A program made the translations under genes and the position numbers. From Natronosalvus halobius (lineage in GTDB: Archaea; Halobacteriota; Halobacteria; Halobacteriales; Natrialbaceae): a stretch of DNA of 64,000 nt. The notes under the pieces were generated by a model. The model had not been told where the DNA came from. It worked only from the letters and a program-made list of their open reading frames with translations, and ran no database searches. Shown one piece after another: positions 5,563 through 32,732 of this stretch. The stretch lies in assembly GCF_024138145.1 (NCBI RefSeq), contig NZ_CP099997.1, forward strand, positions 3,348,001 through 3,412,000. The letters are read 5' to 3'. How positions within the stretch are numbered: the first letter of the stretch is position 1; each line of letters begins with the position of its first letter.

Positions 5563-5949
5563 TCACCTCGACGTTCCGTAGTCGGTGTACTCGAGGAGCA
5601 GATGAGGGACGATGACGCCGACTACAAAGACGATTCCAAAGACGGCTTCCGACGAGAGACTGGTAAACTCGTAGAGCCCGTACAGCAGTCCCATCGCGAC
5701 CAGAACGAAGGTACCGATAAGCCTGTTTTCGGCAGTGACCAGCCCTTCCCGTCTGACGACGATGTACAGCGAGAGGAGTAGCAATCCGAGCACGCCAACG
5801 AGAACAGCCGTCACCAGTTCGATGGAGTCCGTCGCCAGCGCGTAGAATAGCGCGATGCCGACCGCGACGTACGACAGTCCGAGCGCTACCGGACCGCCTC
5901 GCCCGTCGAAAAAGCGATTGGCGTCCGTTCCGGACGGCGGAGCGTTCAC
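5563..5949 (-). CDS. Four-span membrane protein
   Basis: About 128 residues if translation starts at the GTG at 5949 (VNAPPSG); the open frame continues to an ATG at 6024, but those extra residues are atypical and would overlap the YchF upstream region. Four hydrophobic segments follow a short polar N-terminus. No family is recognised. It lies convergent to the ATPase gene and divergent from the YchF gene. Confidence 0.6.
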   Translation of the reverse strand: MNAPPSGTDANRFFDGRGGPVALGLSYVAVGIALFYALATDSIELVTAVLVGVLGLLLLSLYIVVRREGLVTAENRLIGTFVLVAMGLLYGLYEFTSLSSEAVFGIVFVVGVIVPHLLLEYTDYGTSR

Positions 5950-6089
5950 GTTCCCAACGTGACACTGGAGGACAAAATACGTACCGGCGCGGTCGCTCGA
6001 ACCCTCGATCCGAGACCGTGGCATGCCCCGTCATTTCACACGGCCGCGAGAGCAAAAGCCGTTTAGCCGGGCCGTGCGCACGACCCGTA

Positions 6090-7289
6090 ATGACCAGCAG
6101 TTACCGGATCGGACTCGTCGGCAAACCCTCAGTCGGCAAGTCCTCCTTCTTCAACGCCGCCACGATGAACGACGTCCCCGAGGGGGCCTACCCGTTCACC
6201 ACCATCGACCCCAGCGTCGGCGAGGCCTACGTCCGCGTCGAGTGCGCCGCTCCCGAGTTCGACGAGGAGTGCACCCCCAACGTCGGCTACTGCGAACACG
6301 GAACCCGCTTCGTCCCCACGAAACTCGTCGACGTCGCCGGCCTCATTCCCGGCGCCCACGAGGGCAAAGGCCTCGGGAATCAATTTTTGACTGACCTCAA
6401 CGAGACCGACGTACTCGTCCACGTCGTCGACTTCGCTGGCGAGACGAACCTCGAGGGCGAACCCACCGAGGGTCACGACCCGCGCGAGGACATCGACTTC
6501 CTCGAGACCGAACTCGATCAGTGGTATCTAGGCGTGCTCGAAAAAGGAATAAACCGATATTCGTCGGGCTACGTCACCGAGGACGACGCCATCGAGGAGG
6601 ATCTGGCCGAGCAGATGAGCGCGTTCAAGACGAACGAGGACGAGCTCAAACTCCTCATCCGGCGCGTCGACATCGGCTTCGACCCCGAAGCGTGGGACGA
6701 CGAGGACAAACTCGAACTCGCCCGCGAGATTCGCAAGGCGACGAAGCCGATGGTGATCGCGGCGAACAAGATGGACACCCCCGCAGCCCAGGCCAACTAC
6801 GACGATATCACGAGCGACCCCGAGTACGAGCACCTGACCATCGTTCCCTGTAGCGCCCACGCCGAGAAGGCGCTCAAGTCGGCAGACAAGGCCGGTGTCG
6901 TCGACTACCAGCCAGGTGACGACGGCTTCGAGATCACGGGCGACATCTCCGAGAGCCAGAAGGAAGGCCTCGAACAGATTCGTGACTTCCTCCAATCCTA
7001 CGGTGCGACGGGTGTCCAGGCGGCCCTCGAGACGGCCCTGTTCGACGTGCTCGGCGTGACGCCGGTGTTCCCCGGCGGTGCCAACGGCCTAGGGAACGAG
7101 CGCGGCGAGGTGCTGCCCGACTGCTTCCTGATCCCGCCCGAGTCGACCGCCGAGGACTTTGCGTACAGCCTCCACTCGGACATCGGCGACGGCTTCCTCT
7201 ACGCCATCGACTGCCGGAGCAACCGACAGTTAGGCAAGGACTACCCCGTCGAATCTCGGGACGTGATCGAGATCGTGACGACGAACTGA
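6090..7289 (+). CDS. ychF: YchF/Ola1-family translation-associated GTPase/ATPase
   Basis: 399 residues from the ATG at 6090 (MTSSYRIGLV); an upstream in-frame ATG would add an atypical 24-residue leader. The nucleotide-binding motifs are clear: GLVGKPSVGKSS (G1), DVAGLIPGAHEGKGLG (G3) and NKMD (G4). The C-terminal TGS-like domain (LPDCFLIPPESTAEDFAYSLH to the end) completes the Obg-family layout. YchF proteins bind ribosomes and are widely conserved. The G4 sequence is NKMD rather than the altered form of bacterial YchF, so GTP use is plausible. Confidence 0.92.
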   Translation: MTSSYRIGLVGKPSVGKSSFFNAATMNDVPEGAYPFTTIDPSVGEAYVRVECAAPEFDEECTPNVGYCEHGTRFVPTKLVDVAGLIPGAHEGKGLGNQFLTDLNETDVLVHVVDFAGETNLEGEPTEGHDPREDIDFLETELDQWYLGVLEKGINRYSSGYVTEDDAIEEDLAEQMSAFKTNEDELKLLIRRVDIGFDPEAWDDEDKLELAREIRKATKPMVIAANKMDTPAAQANYDDITSDPEYEHLTIVPCSAHAEKALKSADKAGVVDYQPGDDGFEITGDISESQKEGLEQIRDFLQSYGATGVQAALETALFDVLGVTPVFPGGANGLGNERGEVLPDCFLIPPESTAEDFAYSLHSDIGDGFLYAIDCRSNRQLGKDYPVESRDVIEIVTTN

Positions 7290-7372
7290 CTCTCGAACTG
7301 CACGCGTCTCGAGTTGACTTCGGTCTGGTTCGGGTATCACATTAGACTCTATTTTGGCTCTGATAGCCCGTT

Positions 7373-7556
7373 TCAAACGCCGTTTGAGGCTGGTGACTCG
7401 CTCTTTCGACCTGTCACGGTAACTTCACCCGAGAGCAACTGTTCAGAAGGCGGAGCGAGCGCGATCTCTTCCTCATCGAAGTGTCGTTTTACTAATCGAC
7501 GGAAGTCCGAGCGAATCGTCAAGATGTCCTTGTTATTCGGATCCTCTATAGATTGC
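7373..7556 (-). pseudogene. 3' fragment of an mscS-type channel gene cut by a tnpB element
   Basis: The reverse strand encodes SIEDPNNKDILTIRSDFRR, then VKRHFDEEEIALAPPSEQ and a short tail before the stop. This matches the typical C-terminal end of MscS-family small-conductance mechanosensitive channels (after the beta domain). The matching N-terminal half lies on the same strand beyond the tnpB element, at 9023-9421. By comparison with usual MscS length, roughly 100 residues between the fragments (most of the pore-proximal beta domain) are missing, so a deletion accompanied or followed the insertion. The boundary with the element is approximate. Confidence 0.65.
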
Positions 7557-7569
7557 AAGGCAGAGTACC

Positions 7570-7587
7570 ACGGGTCACTCGACCCGT
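7570..7587. repeat. Left-end hairpin of the tnpB element
   Basis: A seven-base stem (ACGGGTC with GACCCGT) around a four-base loop ACTC, with further imperfect pairing outside it. It is nearly identical to the right-end hairpin, as expected for the subterminal structures recognised by IS605-type TnpA. Confidence 0.7.
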
Positions 7588-7648
7588 AGGTGAATGCCAA
7601 CAGCCCTCAATCAATCCATTTACTAGTACATAAGACAAGTAACTGATA

Positions 7649-8983
7649 ATGCAAGATTCAGAACTAACCCAGACGCTCTCCTTTGGATTAACCATCCACG
7701 AGGGTAGTTCTGACAACTTGCTAGAAGGCTGTCTCGAAGCACGACGAATCAGAAACGAGGTCAACCGTCTCGACCGTGAAGGCTGGGACTGGAACGACAT
7801 CCACGACACGGTAGTGGACACCGCCACCCACGTCAAAAACACCACGCAACTCCTCGTACAGAAAGCACTCACGGAGATTGAAACGTACATCGACCACAAA
7901 GACGATGGCTGGGGCCGACCGTTCCCCTACATTCACGAGCTGTATCCAATGCGAATGAACCACGACGAAGGATACGCACTCACCGTGGACGACTCAGGAA
8001 ACGTACGATTCCGTGTCAGTTATAAGCCATACAACTACGTCAAGGGCGTGCTTCGCGGTAGTCCCGGTCACCTCAACCGCGTGAAGAACGCACTTTCCTC
8101 GGATGCGTGGCGGGTGGGAGTTGCAGAACTCGTTCAGAAACACAACGAGTGGCGACTCCACGTCACCGTCACGCACAAACAGCGCATGGTTCGGGCGCCT
8201 AAAGAGGCTGGCACAGTGGTTGGCGTAGACATCAACGAAGACTGCGTTGGACTCGCCGCGATGGCCCGAGACGGAGACGTACTCGATTCACTCGTTCTTG
8301 AGTATCCAGACATCAAGCGTCTTCGCCACGAATACTTCACGAAGCGCAAGCGGATGCAGAAGGTTGGGCAGACTGCGTTCGAAACCGTGGTTCGGACGAA
8401 AGAACGCGACTTCGTTCACGACCACCTCCACAAAGTATCGCGTGACGTGACTCAGTGGGTTTCGCAATTCAATGACCCGGTAATCGTCTTTGAAGACCTC
8501 AAAGACATGCGAGATTCCATCGACTACGGCACGCGAATGAACCGGCGCTTACACAGCCTCCCGTTCGCCGCACTTCGTGATATGGTGACGTACAAAGCCG
8601 CCTGGGAAGCCATTCCTTCGGATGAAGTTGACCCCGAGTACACGAGCCAGCGGTGTCCACGGACGAAGTGTTTGCACTCAGAGCGAGCGAATCGGTACAA
8701 GAAGCGATTCAAGTGTAAGGAATGCGGGTTCCAAGACCATGCGGATAGGAAGGCAGCAGTTTGTGTGGCGCAAGAATGGTTTGACGAACAGGATGAAAAT
8801 GTGCCGTCTCTCGACACCCTTCCGCGCGTGCGGAAGGTGAGACGGGCGGCATCGGGCCTGTGTGAAGAGGCCGACTCTCACGGAGCAATTTTTGCTTCGG
8901 GTGTTCACCGACACGGATCGTCGACGCGAGGCAACCGCCAAGCGCGAGAGGAATTAAAGACTGTTGCGTCCACGGTGGATTAG
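7649..8983 (+). CDS. tnpB: TnpB RNA-guided endonuclease (IS1341-type transposase homologue)
   Basis: 444 residues, full length for haloarchaeal TnpB. The RuvC-like catalytic residues are all present: D194 in GVDINED, E282 in VFEDLKD, and D366 in HADRKAA. Between the last two lies the zinc finger with C336, C341, C356 and C359. The usual ADxNAA motif reads ADRKAA, a change next to the catalytic Asp. The C-terminus is polar and low in structure, as is common where the coding end doubles as guide RNA. TnpB proteins cut DNA using a guide RNA transcribed from the element's right end. Base composition is lower in GC than the neighbours. Confidence 0.92.
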   Translation: MQDSELTQTLSFGLTIHEGSSDNLLEGCLEARRIRNEVNRLDREGWDWNDIHDTVVDTATHVKNTTQLLVQKALTEIETYIDHKDDGWGRPFPYIHELYPMRMNHDEGYALTVDDSGNVRFRVSYKPYNYVKGVLRGSPGHLNRVKNALSSDAWRVGVAELVQKHNEWRLHVTVTHKQRMVRAPKEAGTVVGVDINEDCVGLAAMARDGDVLDSLVLEYPDIKRLRHEYFTKRKRMQKVGQTAFETVVRTKERDFVHDHLHKVSRDVTQWVSQFNDPVIVFEDLKDMRDSIDYGTRMNRRLHSLPFAALRDMVTYKAAWEAIPSDEVDPEYTSQRCPRTKCLHSERANRYKKRFKCKECGFQDHADRKAAVCVAQEWFDEQDENVPSLDTLPRVRKVRRAASGLCEEADSHGAIFASGVHRHGSSTRGNRQAREELKTVASTVD

Positions 8984-9040
8984 ACACAGACGCCACGGGT
9001 CACCCGACCCGTGGTACTTCACCCAATCGCCAACGTTAAA
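8860..9040 (+). ncRNA. Predicted omega/reRNA (sense-overlapping RNA) of the tnpB element
   Basis: TnpB guide RNAs span the 3' end of tnpB and the right-end hairpin, and the guide is read from the flanking DNA just beyond the right end. Sense-overlapping RNAs of this type have been described for IS1341 elements in haloarchaea. Here the scaffold would include the tnpB 3' end and the hairpin at 8993-9014, and the guide would begin at about 9023 (CCAATCGCCAACG, which is mscS sequence). The limits are inferred from family knowledge. Confidence 0.5.
8993..9014. repeat. Right-end hairpin of the tnpB element
   Basis: A perfect nine-base inverted repeat, CCACGGGTC and GACCCGTGG, around the loop ACCC. 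It lies just past the tnpB stop and is followed by TACTTCAC before mscS coding sequence resumes. Confidence 0.8.
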
Positions 9041-9421
9041 GTCGGGATCAGCGACGAGAAACATCCCGCTGATCAGCGAACTGAACACGTGCTGCCCGGC
9101 GATACCGAGGGCAAACGTGATGGCTGCAATGATGACCGCCGATTCGGAAAACACCCTTCCGTATCCAGCGGCAATTATGCCCGTCAGGATCGCAAACCCG
9201 ATCAGAACCACCCGAAGGTACGTCTTCGTTGCAGTCTCGATCGTGGGGTTATTGCGATTACGCGATCTGACAATTCCAGTGACAAGAGGAATAAGAACGA
9301 TCCGGCCGATGAAATAGACGATCCCGAGGCCCACGAGGAACCAAAACAATTCTGACAACACCTGGTAGTATGCTGACAGTAAATCTGTCACCCATTCTGG
9401 TAGAGAGGTCTGTCCGATCAT
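9023..9421 (-). pseudogene. 5' fragment of an mscS-type mechanosensitive channel gene
   Basis: The reverse strand from the ATG at 9421 encodes an N-terminal region with membrane spans and the MscS signature: GYGRVFSESAVIIAAITFALGIAGQ, then LISGMFLVADPDFNVGDW. In intact channels this is the pore-lining helix and the start of the beta domain. Directly after GDW the frame runs into the tnpB element's right end and stops at 8954 within it. The remaining C-terminal end lies at 7373-7556. The channel is therefore broken; whether the 155-residue read-through product is stable is unknown. Confidence 0.8.
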
Positions 9422-9669
9422 GCCCTACGGTTAGGGTATGCGAATAAAAACACACTTGCTGGCTGCTCAATGCTATCACGCGTAATCAGGTCATGCCGTT
9501 TTTCTGGCCATTGTACAAGACTCGCGCTGTGAATTCAGCACAGTTGGCTGAACTACTCTAATTCTGCCAGAAACGCTGTGACCGATACAGAGGATGGATG
9601 CAGTACGGTGGCGCTATTTATTTCACGCACTCAAACCGGAACCAACCGCTACATACGGCTGCGAACTAG

Positions 9670-9957
9670 TCACTCGATTTCTAACTGACCGCTCCCGCCG
9701 TCCCCCTCATTGCCGTTCTCGTCCCATTCGAGTTCGAACTCGATACTCAATTCTCCGGGGCCGTCCGTTGGCCCTTCGCGTTCGGCTTTGACCTCAAACG
9801 TCGGGCGTGATGGCGGTTCCATTGTCACGGACTCGGAACCGGATTTGAGTGTGATTGTATCCCCTTGTTCGAGCTTATCAGCGACACTGCGGAGATACGA
9901 GGCGATGTCTTCTCGGGTCTGGTCACTCTCTGATTTGAACAGGACTTCTTCAGGCAT
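9670..9957 (-). CDS. Amphi-Trp domain protein
   Basis: 95 residues from the ATG at 9957 (MPEEVLFKSE); an upstream ATG would add a hydrophobic stretch not seen in the family. The sequence REDIASYLRSVADKLEQGDTITLKSG followed by a beta-rich ELSIEFELEW pattern matches the small amphi-Trp domain family found in haloarchaea and some bacteria. Its function is unknown. The gene is alone, between the broken channel and dihydroorotase. Confidence 0.8.
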   Translation of the reverse strand: MPEEVLFKSESDQTREDIASYLRSVADKLEQGDTITLKSGSESVTMEPPSRPTFEVKAEREGPTDGPGELSIEFELEWDENGNEGDGGSGQLEIE

Positions 9958-10314
9958 AATGAAGGATACGCTGCCTGCACCGATAAATGAATCCCCTGTA
10001 CTGAACGACCACCACCGGCACAATCGAGCCAAATCTCATGCGACATTCGCGCTCTGTATTCAGCACGTCTTCTGAAACTTACTTCAAGCCAAGAGTTTCA
10101 ACATAAATTTATTTTCTATAGTAATATCGAGCTTCGATGGAACGGCCGATTTTCCCGTCGGCCGTCTCGACCGCGCCTTCGAATCTCTCCAACGCGATTC
10201 GTACCCAATCTCGGCCACTCGAACTCGTCACCTTCGAGCCACCGCTCGTCGAAAATGGCCGACGGAACCCGCCCGAACAGAAGCTATTTCCCCGCGGCTT
10301 CGGAACCTCGAGCC
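9958..10314. other. Gene-free interval with AT-rich promoter-like patch
   Basis: 357 bases between two divergent genes. An AT-rich patch at about 10096-10127 (CATAAATTTATTTTCTATAG) could hold TATA elements for either side. I see no convincing ORF; a plus-strand frame from 10137 only overlaps the dihydroorotase gene out of phase. Confidence 0.4.
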
Positions 10315-11679
10315 ATGACCGTGGATCTCGTTATTCACAACGGAACCGTCCTCACGCCTGCGGGCCGGAGCCCGAATTCGGGTATCGCCGTCCAGGACGA
10401 CACGATCGTCGCCGTCGGTCGTAGCGATCAGCTTCCGAGTGCTCGAAAAACGCTCGACGCCGAGGGAAACGTCATCGCCCCCGGCGTCGTCGATTGCCAC
10501 ATCCACAACCGCGAACCTGGCCTCGAGTACAAGGAAGACTGGGAGTCGGCTACCCGGGCGGCCGCCGCAGGCGGCGTCACGACCGTCGTCGGCATGCCCA
10601 ACACCGACCCCGTCATCGACCGGCCCGAGCACCTCGAGTTGAAACTCGAGCGCGGCGACGCGAGCGCCCACGTCGACTTCGGGAGCTACGTCGTCGTCAC
10701 CTCCAAGAACCTCGACCACATCCCTGCCCTGGACGAGGCGGGCGCGCTGGGGTACAAAATCTTCCTGGGCTCGACCGTCGGCGACGTCCCGCCGCCGAAC
10801 GACGGCGAGATCCTGGAGGCGATGGAGCGCATTCGAGAGACGGGGAAGCGACTCGGCTTCCACGAGGAGAACGGCGAGATCATCGACCACTATACACGCC
10901 AATTCCAGGAGGCGGGGAAGAATCGGCCGATCGACCACGCTCACTCTCGACCCGTTATCGCCGAGCAGGAGGCCATCGAGCGCATGCTCACCTTCGCCGA
11001 GGAAACCGGCGCGAAGATCCACATGTTCCACGTCTCCTCGGGGTCGGGTGCGGAGGCGGTCGCCCGCGGGAAAGAGCGTGGGATCGACGTGACCGCCGAA
11101 ACTTGCCCGCACTACCTCTGGTTCACCGAGTCGGTCCTCGAGGAGAAGGGCAACGTCGCCCGGATCCAGCCACCGATCCGGGACGCCGACCAGCGCGAAC
11201 GGCTTTGGACGGCCTTCCAGACCGGCGCCATCGACTGCGTCGCTACCGACCACGCGCCCCACACCCCCGAGGAGAAACTAGTCGGCGACCCCTTCGGGAA
11301 CACCTGGGACGCCATCTCTGGATTCGTCGGCCTCGAGACCGAGGTCCCCGCACTGCTCTCGTTCGTCGAGCAGGGACGGCTCACGCTCGAGGAGTGGGCC
11401 TACCACCACGCGGCGCGCCCCGCCCAGGTCTGGGGGTTGTACCCACAGAAGGGATCGCTGCAGGTGGGCACGGACGCCGATATTACGGTCGTCGACCCCG
11501 ACTTCGAGTGGACGCTCGAGGACGCCTCCGAGTTACACTCGAAGAACTGCGTGACGCCGTTCGAGGGCGAGACTTTTACCGGGAAGGCGGTGACGACGGT
11601 CGTCCGCGGCGAGGTCGTCTACGACGACGGCGAGGTCGTCGGGGAACCCGGGCACGGGGCTCGAGTCGAGCCGAACTGA
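10315..11679 (+). CDS. pyrC: Dihydroorotase (class I amidohydrolase)
   Basis: 454 residues from the ATG at 10315 (MTVDLVIHNG), where the family normally begins. It catalyses ring closure of carbamoyl aspartate to dihydroorotate, the third step of pyrimidine synthesis. Metal-site motifs are present: CHIHNREPG (usually HxHxREPG), the bridging-lysine region GYKIFLGS, HFH-type HMFHVSS, and ATDHAPHT near the C-terminal third. The related allantoinase is the main alternative, but no purine-degradation genes are nearby and pyrD lies 21 kb downstream. The gene appears monocistronic. Confidence 0.88.
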   Translation: MTVDLVIHNGTVLTPAGRSPNSGIAVQDDTIVAVGRSDQLPSARKTLDAEGNVIAPGVVDCHIHNREPGLEYKEDWESATRAAAAGGVTTVVGMPNTDPVIDRPEHLELKLERGDASAHVDFGSYVVVTSKNLDHIPALDEAGALGYKIFLGSTVGDVPPPNDGEILEAMERIRETGKRLGFHEENGEIIDHYTRQFQEAGKNRPIDHAHSRPVIAEQEAIERMLTFAEETGAKIHMFHVSSGSGAEAVARGKERGIDVTAETCPHYLWFTESVLEEKGNVARIQPPIRDADQRERLWTAFQTGAIDCVATDHAPHTPEEKLVGDPFGNTWDAISGFVGLETEVPALLSFVEQGRLTLEEWAYHHAARPAQVWGLYPQKGSLQVGTDADITVVDPDFEWTLEDASELHSKNCVTPFEGETFTGKAVTTVVRGEVVYDDGEVVGEPGHGARVEPN

Positions 11680-30240: not shown

Positions 30241-30281
30241 ATTGATGCTTGGCCGTCAGACAATCACTGTCGTGTTACACA

Positions 30282-32732
30282 GTGAAACGGCGCACCTTCA
30301 TTAAAACTGTCACGAGCACGCTCGCGGGATTGGCTGCGACCCAACCCACGCAGGCCGCAGATTCCGCCCTCGACTGTGGCGTCTGGTACGACGCCGAGAT
30401 CACACGCGTCGTCGACGGCGACACCTTCGACGTCTACGTCTACGAAACCGGCAAGGAGTACAACGTCCGCACACTCGGGCACGACACGCCCGAGAAAACC
30501 GGCAACACGAGTTACGAGATGATCGAGGAGTGGGAGTTCATCGAGGACGAGGCGCACCTCGAGCACTGGGGCAACGAGGCGACTAACTTCGCCGAGGCGG
30601 AGCTCCCTGCGGGCTCGGCGTGCCAGGTCCAAGTCGACTGCGCCTCCGAGGAGATCGACCAATTCGGCCGTCTCCTCGCGAAGATAAGGTACGATCGGGA
30701 CGGCGACGGGACGTACACGGTTTACAACAAACTCACCCTCGAGGAGGGGTATGCCCGAGTGTACGCTGCAAGCCTGACGAACACGGACGAGTACCTCGAG
30801 GCCCAGGAGGCCGCCCGGGCGGCCGGGCGCGGGCTCTGGGTCGCCGACGACGGGTACGTCTCGGAGTGGCGAAACGACGACGTCGCGGCAACGTTTCACC
30901 CGCACACCTCGAGCGTCAGGACGACGGACGGCCCCGTCCCTGACTCGCGAGTACCGGTCTGGGCGGAGGACACCGCCGTCCAGGAGAACACCACCGCGAG
31001 CACCGTCGACTACGACTCGATTCCGATGGTCGGCGTCGACGAATCGCACAACCTCGCGTACTTCGGCGGCTGTACGATCAACGAACGCTGGGAGGGCGAG
31101 TCGGCCGACCTGAACCACTTCACGTTCGTCACGAACCTGATCGACCACCTCCACGACAGCGACGATCCCTCCGGGCCGGTGCTGGTCGACGGCGGCCACC
31201 GAACCTTCGAGCAGGACAACGCGGTTTCGGCGGAGGACACTGCGTACTACCAGCGCCACCTCGAAGGGCTCGGTATCGAACTCCACAGCATCAACGCCTA
31301 CGGGAACGGACGTGGGTACAGCCTGTCGGATGCTCGCGCGCTCGTCGCTTCCTGTAGCCCGGAGGCGTGGACCGGGGCGGAAATCGCGGAGGTACAGGAG
31401 TTCGTCGACCAGGGTGGCGTCGTCCTCCTGCTGGGCAGCGGCAGCGAGACCGCTGGGGAGCGAGCCAACCTCGACGACCTCGCTGCGGGCCTCGGATCGG
31501 ATCTCCGGCTCAACTACGACGACGTTCGCGACGACACGAACTACGCCGGCGATAGTCGAAAACTCCTCCAAACGGGGCAGCTGAACACGACCGACTTCGA
31601 CCTCTGGTCGGCTTACGAGAGCGGCAAAGGTGTTCGAACGGATGTCTTGCGTGCGTCGCCAAACGATCCCGGCGCCGACGCGGATCACGAGTGGACGCTC
31701 GCTGACCCCGCCGACGAGTTCGCCGGCGAGCTCGATACGATCACCGTCGACTACCCCGACGGGACCAGTCTGGACGGCCTCACGAACGACGACGTGACCG
31801 TCTACCTGGACCGAGACAGCGACGGGACGGTCGACGAGATTCCGGTCAACGCCGATTCCTACGCTGGGAGCACCGCTACCTTCGACCTCGACGGTCGGTA
31901 CAATACCTCGGTCGAGGGCGAGGTTCGCGTCGAGGTCGCCGGCGTCACGAATCCAAAGTCGGGCGAGTACGTCGCGGCGGAGACGCTCGAGGGCGACGAT
32001 TACCTCTCGATCGACGTCGAGTACAACGTCACCGAGTTGCGGGCCGCGACAGATTCGGCCACTCGCGTCGGCGACGCGTCGGCGACGCTGAACGGAACGC
32101 TCGAGGACCTCGACGGCGCGGACTGGGGCGAAGTGTACTTCGAGTGGGGGCCGGCGGGCGACTTCGTGAACACCACTCCCTCCCGCTTACTCGAGGAAAC
32201 GGGATCCTTCGGCGAAGAGATCGACGGTCTCGAGGCTGGTCGGGAGTACGAGTTCCGTGCCGTCGTCGAATCGAACCACGGCTACACGGCCTACGGTTCC
32301 GTGCGGTCGTTCACCGCCCAGAGCGACGTTCGATCCGACGTCCTCGAGGCCGATCCGAACACGGCCGGCGCCGAGTCCTATCACACCTGGACGCTCGCAG
32401 ACCCCTCGGGTGACTTCGACGGCGAGGTGGACGCCATCGCGGTCGATTACCCCGACGGAACCAGTCTGGATGGCCTCACGAACGACGACGTGACCGTCTA
32501 CATGGATCGATACGGCGACGGCACGGTCGACGAGATCGCCGTCAACTCCGACGAGTACGGTGGAAGCGCGGCGACCTTCGACCTCAACGGCGTCTACAAT
32601 ACGTCGGTCGAGGGCGAGGTTCGTGTCGAGATCGACGGTGTGACCAATCCCGATTCAGGAGAGTACGTCACCAACGAGACGCTCGACGGGGAGGACTACC
32701 TCTCCGTGGACGCCGAATTCGTCGTGGACTAG
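30282..32732 (+). CDS. Tat-exported nuclease-like multidomain surface protein
   Basis: 816 residues from the GTG at 30282; this puts the Tat motif RRTFIK at residues 3-8, followed by a hydrophobic h-region and QAAD near residue 25. Domain order: a thermonuclease (SNase) domain about 32-190 with R63, E71 and R130 at the places of the known catalytic residues; a GATase1/DUF4350-like region about 285-445 (GPVLVDGGHRTF to LLLGSGSET); a copy of a 135-residue repeat from about 450 (DVLRASPN to YLSIDVEYNV); a fibronectin-III-like region about 585-680; then a second repeat copy to the end. No C-terminal anchor. Calcium-like DxDxDG sites occur in the repeats. Confidence 0.85.
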   Translation: MKRRTFIKTVTSTLAGLAATQPTQAADSALDCGVWYDAEITRVVDGDTFDVYVYETGKEYNVRTLGHDTPEKTGNTSYEMIEEWEFIEDEAHLEHWGNEATNFAEAELPAGSACQVQVDCASEEIDQFGRLLAKIRYDRDGDGTYTVYNKLTLEEGYARVYAASLTNTDEYLEAQEAARAAGRGLWVADDGYVSEWRNDDVAATFHPHTSSVRTTDGPVPDSRVPVWAEDTAVQENTTASTVDYDSIPMVGVDESHNLAYFGGCTINERWEGESADLNHFTFVTNLIDHLHDSDDPSGPVLVDGGHRTFEQDNAVSAEDTAYYQRHLEGLGIELHSINAYGNGRGYSLSDARALVASCSPEAWTGAEIAEVQEFVDQGGVVLLLGSGSETAGERANLDDLAAGLGSDLRLNYDDVRDDTNYAGDSRKLLQTGQLNTTDFDLWSAYESGKGVRTDVLRASPNDPGADADHEWTLADPADEFAGELDTITVDYPDGTSLDGLTNDDVTVYLDRDSDGTVDEIPVNADSYAGSTATFDLDGRYNTSVEGEVRVEVAGVTNPKSGEYVAAETLEGDDYLSIDVEYNVTELRAATDSATRVGDASATLNGTLEDLDGADWGEVYFEWGPAGDFVNTTPSRLLEETGSFGEEIDGLEAGREYEFRAVVESNHGYTAYGSVRSFTAQSDVRSDVLEADPNTAGAESYHTWTLADPSGDFDGEVDAIAVDYPDGTSLDGLTNDDVTVYMDRYGDGTVDEIAVNSDEYGGSAATFDLNGVYNTSVEGEVRVEIDGVTNPDSGEYVTNETLDGEDYLSVDAEFVVD

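Follow-up and report, generated by a model that had tools for sequence, protein, structure and literature searches.

The SNase-GIFT gene of Natronosalvus halobius

The window analyzed, a stretch of 64,000 nucleotides from the genome of Natronosalvus halobius, contains a gene whose predicted product combines a Tat-type signal peptide, a SNase-type nuclease domain, a GIFT/DUF4350-type domain, and two Ig-like repeats separated by an Fn3-like domain. The features are summarized in Table 1. An alternative TTG start at position 30249 gives a longer open frame of 827 aa. The adjoining genes encode a type I phosphodiesterase-family protein, a DoxX protein and, on the opposite strand, dihydroorotate dehydrogenase (DHO_dh, pyrD). 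Homologues identified in two congeneric genomes are full-length and share 93% and 89% identity with the N. halobius protein. Compared with these, the whole gene gave dN/dS ratios of 0.116 and 0.102, with values of 0.05 for the SNase and 0.06-0.11 for the GIFT domain, showing that the gene is under purifying selection.

Table 1. Features of the SNase-GIFT gene and its product in the window, with one example of a nested GIFT domain from a relative.
Feature	Position	Strand	Basis or conservation
SNase-GIFT gene	30282..32732	+	ORF, GTG start to stop, 816 aa
Tat-type signal peptide (putative), VKRRTFIK...TQA, residues 1-27	30282..30362	+	Read from translation; RR pattern; pLDDT <50 at residues 1-24
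SNase (OB-fold nuclease) domain, residues 33-187	30378..30842	+	Pfam PF00565; model superposition on 1snc
D45 and D47, DGDT motif	30414..30422	+	88/88 GIFT-linked SNase domains
Catalytic R63	30468..30470	+	88/88; family profile aligned to SNase
D68-T69-P70-E71, including catalytic E71	30483..30494	+	D and E 88/88, T 84/88
EWEFI loop (EWEGI in relatives), residues 82-86	30525..30539	+	Just ahead of the GIFT insertion place in 14 relatives
Catalytic R130	30669..30671	+	88/88
GIFT/DUF4350-type (GATase-superfamily) domain, residues ~196-447	30867..31622	+	Family alignment; Pfam in relatives; IMPa-like fold; without conserved Cys
Ig-like repeat 1 (REP1), residues 455-583	31644..32030	+	Repeat profile, model, fold search
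Fn3-like domain, residues 586-680	32037..32321	+	Likeness to L103 fn3 stretch; pLDDT of blocks ~48-77
Ig-like repeat 2 (REP2), residues ~686-816	32337..32729	+	Repeat profile, model
Nested GIFT example, residues 289-724	L093 frame 5827-8893		GIFT inside SNase

When each segment was searched for known domains, as the first-pass annotation had proposed, the SNase scored above its Pfam cut-off and the DUF4350/GIFT and Fn3 regions below theirs, with homologous relatives scoring above, and no Pfam family was assigned to the repeats. All of the single domains belong to already known kinds but the repeat, for which Pfam has no model.

The Tat-type signal suggested earlier was found again as a sequence pattern: two adjacent arginines are present in VKRRTFIK, and the RR pattern occurs in 46 of the 49 family members analyzed, the N. 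halobius protein included. A pattern search of the N. halobius protein found no lipobox-like sequence, and the mature protein is acidic with a pI of 4.05. Judged from its sequence, the protein is apparently exported. The mature protein contains five cysteines (C32, C114, C120, C264, and C358). The LDCG and C-x5-C cysteines are kept in the close relatives L040, L041, and L059 and are absent from most of the family alignment; being limited to close relatives, they could form a lineage-specific disulfide.

The nuclease domain

The N-terminal domain matches PF00565 with an E-value of 6.2e-11 and 43.1 bits, against a curated cut-off of 21, and the AlphaFold model of this domain superimposes on staphylococcal nuclease (1snc) over 132 residues with an rmsd of 1.9 angstrom, a Z-score of 19.2, and 25% identity. 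A profile built from 20 relatives matched staphylococcal nuclease across the catalytic region (E 4e-13); the single N. halobius protein, searched against solved structures, gave no match at E-values up to 1. The first-pass annotation had regarded the catalytic Arg, Glu, and Arg of the thermonuclease domain as intact. This is correct, as D45, D47, R63, D68, E71, and R130 are kept in all 88 GIFT-linked SNase domains (74 plain and 14 with an insert), and also in each of 40 SNase-only domains. The catalytic residues (R63, E71, and R130) and the Ca2+ ligands (D47, D68, and T69) are thus all in place. We take D45/D47 to be equivalent to D19/D21 of staphylococcal nuclease, R63 to R35, D68/T69 to D40/T41, E71 to E43, and R130 to R87. 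The best NCBIfam match of the domain was the calcium-activated nuclease EcnA (NF047969, a model of 151 positions); membership was rejected, the score of 92.8 bits being below the equivalog cut-off of 180.

At E <= 0.01, PF00565 matches two proteins of the N. halobius genome (95% complete), each of them a GIFT fusion. The use of DNA through SNase in this organism, if any, would thus probably proceed via the SNase-GIFT family. The paralogue (L007, complement 6823-11316) is encoded on a second contig and has 1498 aa with a Tat-type start, followed by several GIFT copies, one REP, the SNase, a GIFT, and two PKD domains.

Distribution and origin of the SNase-GIFT unit

Matches to the N. halobius protein were found somewhere in 88 of the 125 genomes of the same family (E <= 0.001), and the 37 genomes with no match at this threshold show that the protein is dispensable. 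The full-length layout is present in three of the 125 (N. halobius itself, G112, and G114), all belonging to one genus, and appears therefore to be a lineage-specific elaboration of a common core; SNase-GIFT-REP was observed in two further genomes of the family (G095 and G088). In the phyletic search for this architecture, the exact layout was restricted, and the SNase-GIFT core far more widespread. A second scan, seeded by two peptide patterns of the family and hence covering near relatives, gave 62 loci, all from haloarchaea or halobacterial MAGs. Across the Halobacteria, 265 of 391 genomes match the family profile at 1e-30, many of them with SNase only, and a hand count placed the core unit in at least 98 of the 391, counting matches that span from profile position 62 or below to position 406 or above and leaving split matches uncounted. 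Extending the search to the phylum gave matches at 1e-20 in 33 genomes that do not belong to the Halobacteria; the listed matches of these all end at or before position 175, corresponding to SNase only. Matches were also found in eight plasmid records, all from haloarchaeal genera, where the annotations read "thermonuclease family", "lamin tail domain-containing", and "PKD domain-containing protein". Neither the exact layout, of which the first-pass annotation knew no described case, nor an SNase-GIFT or SNase-DUF4350 fusion, the nested form included, was found described in the open PubMed Central literature.

In the 49 members analyzed with Pfam (N. halobius included), SNase was identified in 48, ABC_transp_aux in 42, GIFT in 41, DUF4350 in 40, and LTD in 26. 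The usual layout is GIFT-SNase-GIFT, with an upstream GIFT domain in 56 of the 70 distinct full-core frames, the N. halobius protein being among the 14 frames without. In an unrooted tree of 114 SNase domains, in which domains split by an insert were excluded and the SNase-only rows were drawn from Halobacteria and the wider phylum, a single branch separates 74 GIFT-linked from 40 SNase-only domains (100/99, and 100% of 200 bootstrap trees). With this tree, a single origin would fit the SNase-GIFT unit. The middle region had earlier been described as an unrelated GATase1-like region. Its placement in the GATase superfamily and its likeness to DUF4350 hold; its presence beside the nuclease is not incidental, since it is part of a widespread SNase-GIFT unit in which a second GIFT often precedes the SNase and is sometimes nested in it.

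L055, L078, and L117 have the core distributed over two frames, owing to frameshifts that are either genuine or due to the assembly, and some copies may thus be broken. Stops inside matches were initially taken as a mark of decayed copies; this was dropped, as the frames of L042 and L048, the two that are comparable, end at the domain end.

The GIFT/DUF4350 domain

Taken alone, the region following the nuclease of the N. halobius protein remains under the Pfam cut-offs (DUF4350, 19.6 bits against 30.4; GIFT, 16.5 against 27.2). In the relative L044, which aligns with it over the whole domain, a single stretch of the post-SNase domain scores 40.7 bits for GIFT, above the cut-off of 27.2, and in multi-copy relatives the whole-protein scores, summed over copies, reach 85 bits for DUF4350, 81 for ABC_transp_aux, and 64 for GIFT. 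By this alignment, the N. halobius region is clearly homologous to a GIFT domain scoring above cut-off. SNase and Fn3/Ig chains took up the hit list when the complete model was used for the fold search, and GIFT and REP1 were therefore modelled and searched together as a separate piece. In this model, 340 of 390 residues have a pLDDT of 90 or higher, and the best match of GIFT among solved structures is residues 90-297 of the O-glycopeptidase IMPa (5kdw; Z 12.0, 189 residues aligned, rmsd 3.8 angstrom).

Conserved elements of the domain are [D/E]GGH (DEGH in N-type copies), a Glu in the next helix, and LRLN..V.D (FRFNDDQV.D). A His is kept in 69/74 C-type and 58/61 N-type copies, with Asp or Glu three residues before it in 70/74 and 61/61, respectively. 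Together with membership of the GATase-like superfamily, this conservation could suggest that GIFT is itself an enzyme, either an amidotransferase or a sugar-active one, and the protein bifunctional. We find this highly improbable, as none of the 257 alignment columns has the Cys nucleophile of class I GATases, or any other Cys, in more than 5 of the 74 C-type or 5 of the 61 N-type copies, and an active amidotransferase was rejected on this ground. Moreover, sugar binding has been proposed for GIFT domains elsewhere (PMC7226087), and complex formation for membrane-anchored archaeal DUF4350 proteins, from their likeness to GldG and to the trimerisation domain of beta-galactosidase (PMC5898192). 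Based on the lack of a conserved Cys and on these proposals, GIFT probably serves in binding or oligomerisation rather than as an amidotransferase.

GIFT domains nested inside the nuclease

In some relatives a GIFT domain is located inside the SNase fold. The split was first noticed in L093 and L094, and further cases were taken from listed places in 12 genomes where a match starts at position 59-62 and reaches 406 or beyond. In all 14 split loci (L093, L094, and L160-L171) the insertion lies at the same place just past the EWEGI loop, although the loci were picked for their split matches and the count is thus not a frequency. The SNase match halts at model position 58-65, GIFT follows, and the SNase restarts at position 59-62. 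L170 contains two inserted GIFT copies, GIFT was matched in part in L160, L163, and L164, and the boundary of the second half is loose in L168. In six comparison loci (L172-L177) the SNase is unsplit. An independent Pfam check of L161 and L093 recovered DUF4350 in three stretches, and the SNase only from profile position 18 onwards. All six catalytic and ligand residues are present in each of the 14 nested SNase domains. In a quick tree, 13 of the 14 nested rows group together (SH-aLRT 80), two changes being needed owing to the very long branch of L171; the grouping makes a single insertion event plausible.

The nesting of GIFT in the SNase argues for a working unit. One may go further and regard SNase-GIFT as a secreted nuclease of a kind not yet described, to which GIFT is indispensable, the inserted copy in one lineage perhaps gating the active site or feeding substrate such as glycan- or protein-bound DNA. 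The basis is that the SNase is followed by GIFT in the whole clade and often also preceded by it, and that in one lineage GIFT was inserted at the loop past the active-site segment. We consider this reading possible, with the chances somewhat against it. The nested layout also offers a natural experiment on GIFT/DUF4350, for which functions have only been proposed, within an enzyme of very well known mechanism.

Ig-like repeats and the Fn3-like region

The first-pass annotation described two repeats split by a fibronectin-III-like region, and this arrangement was recovered. REP1 and REP2 share 72% amino acid identity (dS 0.69). Against an iterated repeat profile that includes both among its members, they reach 190 and 196 bits, respectively; their likeness therefore exceeds chance. 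No Pfam family matches the repeat well (best E 0.15, for REP1). The region between them scores 14.1 bits with Fn3 (PF00041), under the cut-off of 25, and is 46% identical to a stretch of L103 that scores 27.3 bits with fn3. The REP1 model is Ig-like and comes closest, among solved structures, to YcnI, a Nocardia Ig-like protein, YweA, TTHA1873, and BslA (Z 9.4-10.3), a level (Z ~8-10) at which the common Ig-like arrangement may be all that is shared. The term adhesion-like, used earlier for these modules, is interpretative: the repeats are Ig-like, with structural matches that are middling.

These modules bear on the possibility that the protein is a biofilm or surface factor, in which the nuclease would trim matrix eDNA, and the Ig-like repeats, Fn3, and GIFT would anchor the protein to the S-layer, to glycans, or to other cells. 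REP1 gave Z-scores of 8.8-9.4 with the Ig-like domains of surface proteins such as BslA, SpaD, UafA, and PrgB, and the C-terminal modules vary across relatives (LTD, PKD, Fn3, Ig, and REP); in addition, the neighbourhoods described for archaeal DUF4350 membrane proteins include Ig-like and S-layer proteins (PMC5898192). However, the Z-scores may reflect the Ig-like arrangement alone, none of the 49 members has a C-terminal hydrophobic stretch or PGF by the threshold used, and REP is found in just 12 of the 70 distinct full-core frames. A surface role is thus considered unlikely.

Gene neighbourhood

In a survey of genes adjoining SNase-GIFT loci, 132 ORFs were chosen by a greedy longest-frame rule and without a gene caller, which sometimes picked a wrong frame, e.g., an antisense frame over the N. 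halobius DoxX gene. The survey used 119 of these, including a neighbour of the L039 gene. Thirteen were omitted by hand: six from the duplicate loci L061, L089, and L092, five short ones (L108, L109, L110, L112, and L114), and two family-related ones, namely the neighbour with REP domains in L100 and that with a GIFT domain in L105. Among the best 25 of 73 neighbour families, no Pfam family occurred in more than three of the 119 ORFs, and DHO_dh was found in two. Owing to the rough frame picking, the hand omissions, and the restriction to 25 families, this is weak evidence for the absence of a recurrent partner.

In three loci (L052:5942-8753, L053:6037-8845, and L100:8475-11400) a gene with two REP domains adjoins the SNase-GIFT gene, with which it may form a two-gene unit. 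The two-REP protein of L053 also contains carboxypeptidase-regulatory-like domains and, by eye, bactofilin-like short repeats. In L105 (4295-5729), a frame directly before the SNase-GIFT gene contains a further GIFT domain.

Secreted nucleases have roles against phage or competitor DNA, and the N. halobius enzyme could likewise be a weapon or a means of defence, or could trim DNA for natural uptake. Bacterial secreted nucleases that take part in natural transformation have been described (PMC3929857). However, the family had no match in a phage collection, which says little on a cellular defence protein, and no partner of such kind was found among the best 25 of the 73 neighbour families. We regard these roles as improbable.

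Probable function

The reading that we favour, and consider reasonably likely, is that of an exported, active SNase-type nuclease for extracellular DNA, equipped with a GIFT companion and repeat modules and probably serving nutrition. The exported and soluble protein would act as a Ca2+-dependent endonuclease cleaving extracellular DNA, and perhaps RNA, in brine, and the cleaved DNA would most likely be a source of phosphorus, nitrogen, and nucleosides. Directly after the nuclease, the GIFT/DUF4350 domain would be non-catalytic, probably binding the substrate or a sugar polymer or oligomerising the protein, and the Fn3-like domain and both Ig-like repeats may act as spacers or attachment modules. 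Among DNA uptake, nutrition, and biofilm, nutrition appears to be the best supported role, on the analogy of Hvo_1477 (see below).

Comparison with known systems

The N. halobius nuclease resembles staphylococcal nuclease in its OB-fold, in the equivalents of R35, E43, and R87, and in the Ca2+ ligands, and differs from it by the extra EWEFI (EWEGI) loop, the Tat-type signal, and the large accessory domains. The GIFT domain is homologous to DUF4350, ABC_transp_aux, and IFT52 GIFT (PF14258, PF09822, and PF23355), for which relatives score above the cut-offs. Elsewhere GIFT domains are found in GldG, IFT52, and Wbp1 (PMC10191852, PMC7226087), and archaeal membrane-anchored DUF4350 proteins (arCOG01314) have been assigned to a predicted secretion complex (PMC5898192). 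Unlike in these proteins, the domain is coupled to, or nested in, a nuclease in the SNase-GIFT family. The N-terminal region of IMPa, which shares 13% identity with the GIFT domain, is likewise joined to a metallopeptidase and not to a nuclease.

The closest functional counterpart is Hvo_1477 of Haloferax volcanii, a putative lipoprotein SNase that is needed for normal growth on DNA, its loss diminishing growth (PMC3929857). Both are haloarchaeal SNase-type proteins that carry a signal for export and, at the C-terminus, a further module, in Hvo_1477 a lamin tail domain, which is also present in 26 of the 49 SNase-GIFT members scanned. In contrast to the N. halobius protein, which lacks the lipobox pattern and has no LTD match at E <= 10, Hvo_1477 is a protein of 327 aa with a lipobox, and GIFT is not among the features listed for it (PMC3929857). 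Further, the SNase-GIFT clade stands apart from the 40 SNase-only domains (100/99) in a tree that does not include Hvo_1477 itself, and the role of Hvo_1477 may thus not carry over. A simple transfer of function is made less likely by the position in a clade of its own, by the absence of lipobox and LTD, and by the rough neighbour survey, which gave no telling partner, and the N. halobius nuclease is best read as working like Hvo_1477 without being of the Hvo_1477 kind. The experimental basis for haloarchaeal growth on extracellular DNA, as described in PMC3929857, is this one gene. The use of DNA by species that lack an Hvo_1477-type gene could be explained by the SNase-GIFT proteins, a second clade of SNases that are modular and apparently exported and that occur in roughly a quarter of the Halobacteria sampled, or more.
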